Assembly: GCA_944326315.1 (NCBI GenBank)
Contig: CALVDP010000022.1
Coordinates: 1-35,970 of the forward strand
Direction: 5' to 3'
Length of the DNA stretch: 35,970 nt
Origin: an uncultured Bacteroidales bacterium
GTDB lineage: Bacteria > Bacteroidota > Bacteroidia > Bacteroidales > UBA932
Part shown: positions 5,752 through 35,815 of the stretch, piece after piece
How positions within the stretch are numbered: position 1 is the first letter of the stretch
How the letters are laid out: the number at the start of each line of letters is the position of its first letter
The notes under the pieces: model-generated
Told to the model about the DNA's origin: nothing
Database searches by the model: none
Seen by the model: only the letters and a program-made list of their open reading frames with translations
Translations under genes and position numbers: made by a program

Positions 5752-5758
5752 CAGAAAA

Positions 5759-5908
5759 GAGGGTGACTCAAAAGTGACTTTTGGTCACCCTCAAACGTCT
5801 TTCTTCGAAAGACTGGACCCATCCTAACCCCCTGTACCCCCTATTAGGGGGATATCGCTTCCTCCGGTCGCGGTCCCTTCGGGACTTTTGACCCAGCCTC
5901 TTTTTTTT
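5759..5908 (+). repeat. Multi-hairpin, MITE-like or RNA element after tRNA-Ala
   Basis: The ends 5759-5774 and 5885-5900 are inverted repeats matching at 13 of 16 positions, and an A-run and a T-run extend them outward. Inside are four local hairpins: 5759-5792 (15 bp with one bulge), 5797-5813 (7 bp, TTC loop), 5837-5851 (5 C:G pairs) and 5873-5885 (C(TTCG)G loop). Eight T follow at 5901-5908. It may be a small miniature transposable element, or a folded RNA or terminator for the tRNA transcript. It has no coding capacity. The remaining bases to 6033 show no clear signal beyond the small frame at 5942-6037. Confidence 0.5.
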
Positions 5909-5941: not shown

Positions 5942-6037
5942 TCACCGGGGAAAGTTTTTCCATATCCTCACCTCGGCAATTTGGGAAGGCACAATTGCAC
6001 TCTGTTCGTCAATGGTTTCGTAGAAAGACATATTCAT
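5942..6037 (-). CDS. Possible 31-residue small protein
   Basis: An ATG at 6037-6035 overlaps the stop codon of the methyltransferase gene in the ATGA arrangement typical of translational coupling. It opens a 31-codon frame starting M-N-M-S-F-Y-E-T-I-D-E-Q and ending W-K-N-F-P-R. Composition is protein-like (mixed charged and hydrophobic residues), but I recognise no family. It could be the surviving N-terminus of a gene lost when the element at 5759-5908 arrived, or chance. Only the ATGA overlap supports it. Confidence 0.3.
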   Translation of the reverse strand: MNMSFYETIDEQSAIVPSQIAEVRIWKNFPR

Positions 6038-6984
6038 CTTAACACCGGATCCTCTTTCCGGAGTCTTACGAATATGCTCAGAGGCAGGTTTTTCCCGTAT
6101 CTGTCTTTCAGCACGAGTTCTCCGCATTCAATGCCGGGATAATCTCCTCCAAGCCCGAAAGCCTGTCTGACCACCGTCTCACCGAGGACGGCGGAATATC
6201 CGTTGGAATAAAGGTTGAGGACCATGAAGCTGTTTTCCGGCGCCAGAATGGAAGCCACGCATTTCATTATTTCATAGAGACATTCGTCAAGCTTCCATTT
6301 CTCTCCGTCCGGACCGTGGCCGTATGCCGGGGGGTCAAGTATGATTCCCTGATACAGGTTTCCTCTCCTGGCCTCCCTCCTGGCGAATTTCAATGCATCC
6401 TCTACGACCCACCTGATATTGTCCATTCCGCTGAGTTCCATATTGTTCCTGGCCCAGGTCACCACCTGCCGTACGGAATCAAGATGGGTGACATCGGCTC
6501 CGGCAGCCTTCGCCGCAAGTGATGCCGCCCCGGTGTAGGCGAAAAGGTTGAGTACCTTCGGCTTGCCTGCTCCTTTCCGACTGGCGTTCTCCACCACCCT
6601 TGTCGTGTTCCTGAATATGTATTCCCAGTTCGGGGCCTGTTCGGGGAAGACTCCCACATGTTTGAATGCGGTCAGCCCGAGCCTGAGTGACAGGTCAAGG
6701 CCTTTCTGAGCCCCGTTGTATCTTATCACCCACTGGTCTTCCATCTTCCTGGATTTGTCCCAGGTCCCGCTGTCTTCCTTGCCGGCTTTCCCGAAACCGG
6801 CACCTGGCTTGAATCTCACATTGATGGTACGGTTCCATTCTGTTTCTGGCAATGTTTTGTCCCACAATGCCTTAGGTTCGGGCCTCGCAATATAGTAAGG
6901 ACCGAATCTCTCCAGTTTTTCAAAGTTTCCGGAATCCACGAGCTCGTAGTCTTTCCAGAAGTCGCCGGGGCTCTCTATAGTCAT
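6034..6984 (-). CDS. Class I SAM-dependent methyltransferase, RlmI/COG1092-like
   Basis: A 316-residue protein. Motif I is V-L-N-L-F-A-Y-T-G-A-A-S-L-A (middle of the protein), followed by the acidic V-T-H-L-D-S strand end and the catalytic-loop motif I-L-D-P-P-A-Y-G-H-G. This layout is that of COG1092 enzymes, several of which methylate 23S rRNA bases; the exact target is unknown. There is no clear N-terminal PUA domain, unlike E. coli RlmI. The start is ATG 6984, because a perfect promoter (7039-7042 and 7018-7011, minus strand) would begin transcription near 7004. A longer frame reaching 7053 would begin upstream of that start site. It reads leftward, divergent from pgk. Confidence 0.85.
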   Translation of the reverse strand: MTIESPGDFWKDYELVDSGNFEKLERFGPYYIARPEPKALWDKTLPETEWNRTINVRFKPGAGFGKAGKEDSGTWDKSRKMEDQWVIRYNGAQKGLDLSLRLGLTAFKHVGVFPEQAPNWEYIFRNTTRVVENASRKGAGKPKVLNLFAYTGAASLAAKAAGADVTHLDSVRQVVTWARNNMELSGMDNIRWVVEDALKFARREARRGNLYQGIILDPPAYGHGPDGEKWKLDECLYEIMKCVASILAPENSFMVLNLYSNGYSAVLGETVVRQAFGLGGDYPGIECGELVLKDRYGKNLPLSIFVRLRKEDPVLR

Positions 6985-7010: not shown

Positions 7011-7095
7011 CAAAGATACGCAGAAGCCGAGTGCAATGCAAACAAGTTTGCAATTGCCGAGGCGCTACAGTATAAATGCCCGAAGGGCAAATATA
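7011..7095 (-). repeat. Hairpin-promoter repeat, copy A; promoter of the methyltransferase
   Basis: Read on the minus strand the order is: TATATTTG (7095-7088); a 5-bp hairpin with TTC loop (7089-7077); the block GCGCCTCGG (7065-7057); a second hairpin (7056-7034, 10 bp with one bulged base); the block CTCGGCTTCTG (7031-7021); and TATCTTTG (7018-7011). A TTTG at 7042-7039, inside the second hairpin's 3' arm, stands 20 bases before TATCTTTG. The unit therefore contains a consensus promoter, and the methyltransferase start follows about 20 nt after the predicted transcription start. The same layout recurs at 24278-24445. Confidence 0.85.
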
Positions 7096-23505: not shown

Positions 23506-24279
23506 ATGGTAAAGGCAATTTTCTTTGATATAGACGGGACTCTGGTCAGTTTCAGGACGCATGAGATCTCCAGGACGACCCTTGACGCCTTGTACTGCTT
23601 GAAGGATAAGGGAATAAAACTGTTCATAGCAAGCGGCAGGCATCTGCTTATCATGGATAATCTCAGCGGCTTCCCGTTTGACGGTTATGTCTGTATGAAC
23701 GGATCGCTTATCTATGACAAAGGCGAGGTCATATACAGCCGGCCGCTTGACAGTGACGATGCCGCTGCAGTAGTGGATTTCGCAGAGAAAAACAATGTTC
23801 CGTGCGTGGCTTTTGCGGAAAAAGAGATAGTGATGAATTGCAGCAACGATCTTACAGAGAGGGTTTTTGAAATGATACGTCTGCCTCATCCTGTGCCATC
23901 TCCGCTTGCTCCTTATGCCAGCAAGCCGGTCTGCCAGTTCACGATATTCGTGGACCGTGCGACTGAGGACAGGTATCTGACCCCTGTACTGAAGCACTCG
24001 GTCACGGCACGCTGGCATCCTGAATTCACTGACATTGATCCGGAGAACATATCCAAGGCTGAAGGTATAGAGAGGATTATTTCACGCTACGGGATACGGA
24101 AAGATGAGGTGATGGCTTTCGGTGACGGAGGGAATGATGTGGAGATGCTGGAATATGCCGGTATAGGGGTGGCTATGGGCAATGCCGTACCTGATGTACA
24201 GGCGCATGCCGACTATGTGACGTCTACGGTGGATGAGGACGGGATTGTCGCTGCCGTGCGTCATTTCGGCCTTCTGTGA
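23506..24279 (+). CDS. Cof-type HAD-IIB family phosphatase
   Basis: A 257-residue soluble phosphohydrolase. Motif I is F-F-D-I-D-G-T-L, with nucleophile Asp8 and acid/base Asp10. Motif II is I-A-S-G-R. Motif III/IV is a Lys before G-D-G-G-N-D-V-E-M-L. An alpha/beta cap sits between motifs II and III, as in Cof-type HAD-IIB enzymes that act on sugar phosphates, PLP or thiamine intermediates; the substrate cannot be read. Its last codons and stop lie within the start of the hairpin-promoter repeat array, and a pseudoknot-like leader precedes it. Confidence 0.92.
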   Translation: MVKAIFFDIDGTLVSFRTHEISRTTLDALYCLKDKGIKLFIASGRHLLIMDNLSGFPFDGYVCMNGSLIYDKGEVIYSRPLDSDDAAAVVDFAEKNNVPCVAFAEKEIVMNCSNDLTERVFEMIRLPHPVPSPLAPYASKPVCQFTIFVDRATEDRYLTPVLKHSVTARWHPEFTDIDPENISKAEGIERIISRYGIRKDEVMAFGDGGNDVEMLEYAGIGVAMGNAVPDVQAHADYVTSTVDEDGIVAAVRHFGLL

Positions 24280-24445
24280 TATTTGACTTCGTCATTTATA
24301 CTGTTGCGCCTCGGTAATCGCAAGCAAGCTTGCATTACTCTCGGCTTCTGCGTATATTTGGCCTGCGGCCACATATTCGGTGGCGCCTCGGTAATGCAAA
24401 TTGAACAAGTTCATTTGCATTACTCTCGGCTTCTGATTATATTTG
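24278..24445 (+). repeat. Tandem hairpin-promoter repeats, copies B and C
   Basis: Copy B runs 24278-24360 and copy C 24353-24445, sharing one TATATTTG. Each has: a -7-like box; a short hairpin (24284-24294, 24359-24371); GCGCCTCGG (24306-24314, 24383-24391); a second hairpin with a one-base 5' bulge and AA loop (24315-24337, 24392-24422); CTCGGCTTCTG (24340-24350, 24425-24435); two bases; and TATATTTG (24353-24360, 24438-24445). CTTG/TTTG at 24329-24332 and 24414-24417 stands exactly 20 bases before each final box, so each copy holds a full promoter aimed at trxA. Stem sequences differ between copies but pairing is kept. The 100 bases from 24446 to trxA show nothing else. Confidence 0.85.
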
Positions 24446-24545: not shown

Positions 24546-24860
24546 ATGGAAAAAATAGTTACAGACGCGAATATCGCGGAGATCCTGGCTTCTGACAAGC
24601 CTGTCATGATAGATTTTTGGGCGACATGGTGCGGACCATGCAGAATGCTTGCCCCGACAGTCGAAGAGATCGCAAATGAATATGAGGGCAAGGCCGTTAT
24701 ATGCAAGTGCAATGTGGACGAGGCATCCGATACTCCGATGAAATACGGGATCAGGAACATCCCGACTCTTCTTTTCTTCAAAGGAGGAGAACTTGTCGGC
24801 CGTCTCGTAGGCGCAGTGCCGAAAAGTGAAATCACAGCCAAGTTGGACGCACTTCTCTGA
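24546..24860 (+). CDS. trxA: Thioredoxin
   Basis: A 104-residue cytoplasmic thioredoxin that reduces protein disulfides. The active site W-C-G-P-C is at residues 28-32 in F-W-A-T-W-C-G-P-C-R, and the cis-proline segment R-N-I-P-T-L-L-F-F and the G-x-L-V-G-R-L-V-G turn are present. Length is standard and there is no signal peptide. It is driven by one or both hairpin-promoter repeats upstream and followed after 4 bases by an outer-membrane protein gene. Confidence 0.95.
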   Translation: MEKIVTDANIAEILASDKPVMIDFWATWCGPCRMLAPTVEEIANEYEGKAVICKCNVDEASDTPMKYGIRNIPTLLFFKGGELVGRLVGAVPKSEITAKLDALL

Positions 24861-35741: not shown

Positions 35742-35815
35742 TTTATTTGGCTTCGGTCACATATACTGCAGCGCCTCGTTGCTGTGTCAAAATAGGTGCA
35801 GCCTATTTTCCTCTG
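35742..35815 (+). repeat. Degenerate hairpin-promoter repeat, copy D
   Basis: TTTATTTG (35742-35749), a hairpin with TTCG loop (35748-35759), ACATATACTG, GCGCCTCG (35771-35778), then a second hairpin with unrelated sequence (35789-35796 with 35802-35809, 8 bp) and CTCTG. It keeps the layout of copies A-C but has lost CTCGGCTTCTG and the final TATATTTG, so it no longer carries a promoter. The 35605-35741 stretch before it is T-rich with no gene. Confidence 0.55.

Follow-up and report, generated by a model that had tools for sequence, protein, structure and literature searches.

In Neisseria, Correia elements (CREE) are short mobile repeats with inverted repeats, present in about 120 copies in gonococci and often located 5′ of genes, where they can supply promoters (PMC2649163). 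In the so-called Black promoter, the element contains the -35 sequence and a partial -10 sequence, with the insertion site providing the rest. For strain FA1090, the potential promoters of the two kinds number 18 and 15. The BrickBuilt MITE of Porphyromonas gingivalis is an intergenic element with a leader, a tail, and internal 23-nt tandem repeats (PMC4596501). Its 19 copies in ATCC 33277 lie 49-591 nt from genes, and with bidirectional promoters and promoter activity in Escherichia coli probes it is described as a putative mobile promoter. REP sequences and GTAG- or CGTC-tagged palindromes occur in high copy number, also in arrays, and show compensatory stem changes (PMC3733652); the tagged palindromes are 20-40 bp long, and the GTAG types are linked to RAYTs. 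The Bacteroidetes sigma-ABfr promoter has a -7 box TAnnTTTG and a TTTG around -33 (PMC7366714).

Repeat units of the window and their relatives

The window, i.e., the whole stretch of 35,970 nt analyzed here, is contig C22 of a 2.4-Mb draft genome of 103 contigs. It contains the following units and neighboring genes:

24278-24360, plus strand: unit 1, consisting of box GATATTTG (24278-24285), small hairpin, GCGCCTCGG (24306-24314), large hairpin, CTCGGCTTCTG, and box TATATTTG (24353-24360)
24308-24345, plus strand: large hairpin of unit 1; the outer pairs are GCC/GGC, and a single base bulges from the 5′ arm
24329-24332, plus strand: -33 CTTG of unit 1, 20 nt before TATATTTG
24353-24445, plus strand: unit 2, terminal, sharing box 24353-24360 with unit 1; GCGCCTCGG at 24383-24391
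24385-24430, plus strand: large hairpin of unit 2
24414-24417, plus strand: -33 TTTG of unit 2, 20 nt before TATATTTG
24438-24445, plus strand: terminal -7 box TATATTTG, 100 nt before the ATG of the thioredoxin gene, whose promoter it presumably is
24546-24860, plus strand: thioredoxin gene (TIGR01068, E 1.7e-35, above cut-off)
7011-7095, minus strand: single-unit element, with left box TATATTTG and right box TATCTTTG; the gene at 6984-6034 has its ATG 26 nt past the right box
6034-6984, minus strand: methyltransferase-like gene downstream of the single unit (matches below curated cut-offs only)
35742-35794, plus strand: partial, decayed unit with the small hairpin and GCGCCTCG, followed by an unrelated hairpin

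The unit order is box, small hairpin, spacer, GCGCCTCGG, large hairpin, CTCGGCTTCTGN, G, and box. The same box in direct orientation bounds the unit at both ends, CTCGG motifs are fixed, and no terminal inverted repeats were seen by eye. An earlier note on this DNA had described the two-unit layout at 24278-24445, with its coordinates and the 20-nt spacing between -33 and -7 boxes, and all of this was correct; the third copy that it placed on the minus strand at 7011-7095 is real. However, the left box of unit 1, given there as a -7 box, reads GATATTTG rather than TAnnTTTG. The array starts with this box inside the stop codon of the gene before it (window 24270-24279). In two relatives (L290 and L323), homology to that gene stops at most 3 bases from the left end of the array. 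In the half unit at 35742-35794, a hairpin AAAATAGG...CCTATTTT replaces the usual large hairpin.

The units belong to a dispersed family. The 11-base core CTCGGCTTCTG occurs exactly 73 times in the genome, largely in tandem arrays, and at least two of these exact copies (in L010 and L016) lie outside the repeat. With one mismatch, 108 + 76 places were found, versus 31 + 46 in the reversed control; for the 21-base right end CTCGGCTTCTGNGTATATTTG, there were 26 + 25 places, versus 0 in the control. The earlier note had proposed a dispersed family spreading promoters, to be checked by a search for further copies; with 73 exact cores in the genome, the proposal is not refuted and is supported by the data. 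A script delimited 38 arrays, single units included, in the fetched stretches of the genome. Successive unit cores are spaced by 56-61, 74-79, or 82-88 bases, and a single core-to-core gap of 400 bases is filled by longer units. Since several arrays extend into contig ends, all copy numbers are lower bounds. A covariance model trained on 33 units of the genome matched 7011-7095 (E 2.4e-20) and 24278-24360 (E 2.3e-19), both of which are in the training set. Unit 2 (24353-24445) was not listed separately, and weak matches were obtained at 24293-24377 on the minus strand (E 3.5e-4) and at the partial fourth unit, 35742-35794 (E 0.028). The Rfam scan of the window gave nothing above the gathering score except one tRNA. 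No account of such repeats in Cryptobacteroides was found in the literature, which is a weak negative, with unrelated papers swamping part of the results.

The right end CTCGGCTTCTGNGTATATTTG (at most 1 mismatch) was present in 21 of the 149 genomes sampled from the taxonomic family, representing 5 of 25 genera (reversed control 0), and in only 2 of the 41 genomes of the genus sample. Order-wide, 2 of 344 sampled Bacteroidales carry it, both from the same genus as the window, and it was absent from the 339 sampled Bacteroidales genomes of 119 other families. In a collection of named genomes, the right-end pattern was found in at least 116 stretches. Most of the 80 matches listed belong to Candidatus Cryptobacteroides, Coprenecus, Merdivivens, or unnamed Bacteroidales; Muribaculum sp. 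An289 contributes several, and Egerieousia and Onthomorpha one each. On this basis, Candidatus Cryptobacteroides is the most likely genus of the window. The gut habitat of the carriers is taken from their names. We do not claim transfer to another family via Muribaculum sp. An289, as its NCBI name is the sole sign of a different family. Viral contigs do not contain the right-end pattern in its exact form, and a phage origin was rejected.

A second dispersed repeat, with the core GGTCGCGGTCCCTTCGGGACTT, occurs in 18 + 14 places of the same genome (at most 3 mismatches; reversed control 0) and contains CCCCTATTAGGGGG-like hairpins. It lies at 5757-5890 of the window, directly after a tRNA gene, and at seven further loci (L157, L164, L165, L167, L168, L171, and L186); outside the window it is a long unit embedded in arrays. 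At L182, a left-truncated unit comes straight after the stop codon of a gene to the left of the array. This gene is rich in RxEGRxEG-like repeats and is reminiscent of Rpn-type nucleases.

Promoter motifs and hairpin covariation

In 75 of 78 element copies, a TTG lies exactly 20 bases before the -7 box, so that the element contains the sigma-ABfr motif TAnnTTTG with a TTG at the native spacing. Native spacing was taken from 155 native boxes near gene starts (from the window, 80 loci of the named collection, and 34 loci of the same genome), where TTG spacers of 19 and 20 were the commonest (11 and 12 cases) and spacers of 18, 21, and 22 occurred in 7, 6, and 7 cases. The right box reads TATATTTG in 74/78 element copies, compared to 22/155 native boxes. 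Near-identical promoter sequences thus precede unrelated genes, and motif and spacing suggest that the array ends serve as promoters of the genes downstream. The array at 24278-24445 would accordingly be the presumed driver of the thioredoxin gene.

Large-hairpin interiors were compared at the ends of all loci fetched by then, where a copy truncated by the end of one locus but complete in a second may enter the count two times. The 158 ends with a TAnnTTTG box had 101 distinct interiors, and 157 of the 158 were at least 20 nt long. At ends with the GATATTTG box, the interior was shorter than 15 nt in 14/27. A complete promoter is therefore not carried by every unit, contrary to the earlier note. 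Relative to mononucleotide shuffles, folding z-scores below -2 were obtained for 68 of 100 distinct interiors of at least 16 nt and for 5 of 18 interiors of the GATATTTG kind.

Two large-hairpin alignments were selected by length, the shorter class also by subtype (23/30). In the 46-nt class (19 distinct hairpins), 96.0% of the cells were paired, and changes on both sides of a pair were found in 22 cells versus 5.5 in shuffles. In the 38-nt class (23 distinct hairpins), such changes occurred in 12 cells versus 3.2, with one of five measures (further pair types) not above shuffles. The small hairpin had both-sides changes in 29 cells versus 12.5, again with further pair types not above shuffles; its first pair was G-C in 14, T-A in 14, and other in 5 cases. 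The covariation of the hairpins, with the one-base bulge kept in the 5′ arm, as described in the earlier note, was thus borne out against shuffles. Only 6 of 69 changed-but-paired cells were wobble pairs, which hints at DNA rather than RNA folding, with the caveat that related copies do not count as independent events.

Position relative to genes and native -7 boxes

The arrays point toward genes. For 22 of the 34 arrays of the genome and 65 of 108 from other genomes, a long ORF has its first ATG 4-60 bases beyond the array end (12 and 43 fail this strict test). The same holds for 60/1050 and 207/3420 random points (6%) and for 0/24 and 7/95 left ends of arrays. A looser first test was passed by 32/34 and 97/108 arrays; it was replaced by the strict one because its random rate was 44-45%. 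One array stops 9 nt before a tRNA gene, a case free of ATG bias, and an Rfam scan of six other arrays without a gene call gave no match. The downstream genes include those for thioredoxin, rsfS, galactokinase, phosphoglycerate mutase, RuvX, thymidine kinase, SurE, holA, and RlmN. Thirty of 33 downstream proteins were scanned, of which 20 had a match at E 1e-10 and 10 had none; about a dozen are housekeeping proteins by name, and no transposase was among the 30. At L187, the ATG of holA follows the terminal box after a mere 6 nt, so the transcript may be leaderless; in two relatives, the native box is 6-8 nt before the ATG.

Seventeen arrays, including that at 24278-24445, were compared with orthologous upstream regions. 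Relatives were picked by DNA similarity of a single gene, pgk (the closest include G189, G254, G378, G062, G324, and G147; the first five were used), and the comparison is based on one genome per species, drafts broken at repeats, and simple ORF calls. An orthologue was taken as element-free if it had no CTCGGCTTCTG-like end; one of these (L290) holds a piece of a unit. TAnnTTTG was found at most 90 nt from the ATG in 49 of the 51 scored orthologues without an element end. In 8 of the 51, the alignment to the filled site begins exactly at the box, and in none does it begin further upstream, within the unit; a ninth box-exact alignment (L292) was unscored for want of an ATG. The box-exact alignments belong to 5 of the 17 genes. 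Flush junctions are seen at phosphoglycerate mutase (native TATCTTTGCAGATTGG versus filled TATATTTGCAGATTGC), at L180:3854 (TACATTTGCAGCC versus TATATTTGCAGCC), and at thymidine kinase (TATATTTGCAGAGCC versus TATATTTGCAGACCC). At RuvX, the element box abuts a box one base shorter than the native one and is therefore adjacent rather than box-exact.

A permutation test on the box-to-ATG distance only was not significant (550/2000), and flank-based tests were therefore added; they were devised after the flush pattern had been seen. Over the 10 nt after the element box and the native box, summed identity was 93 versus 69.9 permuted (1/5000 permutations), and identity of at least 7/10 was found in 5/17 genes (11/5000 permutations; 54 orthologues). 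On the left, 2 of the 11 genes tested (L155 and L180:3854) were identical at 15/16 positions right up to the native box, with a sum of 123 versus 111.9 (1/300 permutations).

Three sites differ from this flush arrangement. In the thioredoxin, galactokinase, and Clp ATPase genes, the element box is displaced upstream from the native position by about 40-75 nt; the thioredoxin array box is 100 nt from the ATG, compared to 24-26 nt for the box in two relatives. At rsfS, differing element versions occur in four relatives, and the element is absent in G324. The 7011-7095 site was seen without the element in the 24 relatives shown, most of which have a native box close to the gene on its upstream side. 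By eye, TATCTTTG is the commonest of these native boxes, and it is also the right box of the window's element (7011-7018), which has a box on both sides. Elsewhere, left boxes are mostly decayed or untraceable, so that a true target duplication is only putative.

Insertion model, alternatives, and known systems

The reading that fits best, and that we consider probable, is that non-autonomous mobile repeats enter host promoters at the -7 box or close to it and bring along a -33 of their own. We infer mobility, as against another copying process, as well as duplication of the box at insertion. The element would be a repeat-forming unit with a period of 56-88 bp, composed of the small hairpin, GCGCCTCGG, the large hairpin, and CTCGGCTTCTGNG, with a TATATTTG-like box on each side. 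It would insert at the host -7 box (TAnnTTTG), or some tens of bases upstream of it, and read toward the gene. The box would be kept on both sides and the native -33 displaced upstream. The role of the latter would pass to a -33 in the 3′ arm of the large hairpin, exactly 20 bases ahead of the right-hand box, and transcription of the gene would thus continue. Arrays would then expand by tandem duplication, with internal boxes often turning into GATATTTG and many internal units losing the -33 hairpin, while the terminal unit is retained. Box-to-box integration in one orientation, a promoter-restoring -33 within the element, and subsequent tandem growth would be the simplest account. A more tentative version, which we regard as a genuine but lesser possibility, is that the -7 box itself is the place where the replicating repeat integrates. 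The repeat would enter the strand that RNA polymerase has opened there, pairing box with box and invariably facing in the reading direction. It would restore the broken promoter through its own hairpin -33 and could thereby colonize essential genes harmlessly.

Alternatively, a whole promoter (-33 and -7) might move without any target preference, with selection sparing only the insertions that lie close to a gene, point toward it, and take over from its native promoter. The predominance of TATATTTG as the element's right box agrees with this, since the box would then mostly come with the element, as do the three genes whose insertions lie some 40-75 nt ahead of the native box. However, random insertion followed by selection accounts for the orientation and not for the flush junctions: base-exact replacement of the native box in 5/17 genes, the flush left flanks at two genes, and TATCTTTG at 7011-7018 are left unexplained, and we consider this alternative rather unlikely. 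It is improbable that the units form a conserved regulatory module, in which hairpins or cruciforms bind a regulator of a gene set and spread by duplication. The strong covariation, the fixed CTCGG motifs, and the location of arrays mostly upstream of genes would suit a module of this kind, but its presence at the same gene varies among related species, the named genes have no evident common theme, and arrays contain promoter-less units.

A REP/RAYT-like process, in which a Y1 (HUH) transposase recognizes single-strand hairpins, copies units, and makes arrays, has a similarly small chance of being correct. It is suggested by the imperfect hairpins with a conserved bulge, the tandem arrays, the high copy number, the intergenic location, and the scarcity of G-U pairs, which is what folding as DNA would predict. 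Y1 matches occur in 16 of the 21 carrier genomes of the family sample, but also in 78 of 128 non-carriers, which is a small difference, and five carriers, the window's own genome included, have no match at E 1e-3. The least probable explanation is an RNA element, i.e., a riboswitch, a terminator, or a stabilizing 5′ leader. The hairpins are stable when folded as RNA; yet the predicted start lies 3′ of the box, and terminal hairpins should thus be absent from the mRNA, no U-tract was seen by eye, wobble pairs are few, and Rfam matched only the tRNA in the window. Start position and wobble counts likewise disfavor the RNA switch considered in the earlier note, and its other suggestion of a cruciform or regulated promoter is still conceivable.

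As a candidate engine for the preferred insertion at -7 boxes, Y1/RAYT was rejected: PF01797 is found in 94 of the 149 family-sample genomes, and there are 0 matches in the own draft genome (G000) even at E 10. Among 463 clustered neighboring ORFs (at least 100 aa, at most 1.5 kb from array ends), no recurrent family was found; the largest cluster comprised 5 loci, was judged FtsH-like from its sequence, and lies next to rsfS at L155. Neither the Y1 search nor this clustering gave a mobilizing enzyme.

If insertion at -7 boxes is true, a mobile repeat has taken the place of the upstream half of the promoter at dozens of genes in gut Bacteroidales, including many housekeeping genes, and differently between related species. 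This would be a route to rapid promoter rewiring and would offer a natural promoter set for the group; the repeat also accounts for some contig ends in these draft genomes. The compared parts of the literature contain no precedent for the -7 box as a target.

The sigma-ABfr promoter, as described in the parts of its source compared, shares the -7 TAnnTTTG and the TTTG around -33 with the element; here, a dispersed repeat carries the two together, and the -33 lies in a hairpin arm that covaries. As with REP sequences and tagged palindromes, high copy number, compensatory stem changes, and arrays are found. In contrast to REP, the genome has no Y1 match; the compared sections of PMC3733652 describe no promoter role for REP. 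A GTAG or CGTC tag is absent from the palindrome end, which is flanked by GCGCCTCGG and CTCGGCTTCTG (by eye, A1). By analogy, the element would work as Correia elements do, and perhaps as BrickBuilt does. BrickBuilt likewise belongs to Bacteroidales, is intergenic, and has tandem repeats; judged by its description rather than its sequence, it is set apart by the 23-nt repeats, leader and tail, and bidirectional promoters. CREE, in the compared parts of its description, resemble the element as promoter-supplying short repeats upstream of genes, whereas the element has no inverted ends, forms tandem arrays, has a box at both ends, and in some genes sits flush on the native -7 box. Judged by the features compared, among them the absent inverted ends and the tie to the -7 box at part of the sites, we regard the element as a new form of mobile promoter repeat, a member of neither CREE nor BrickBuilt.
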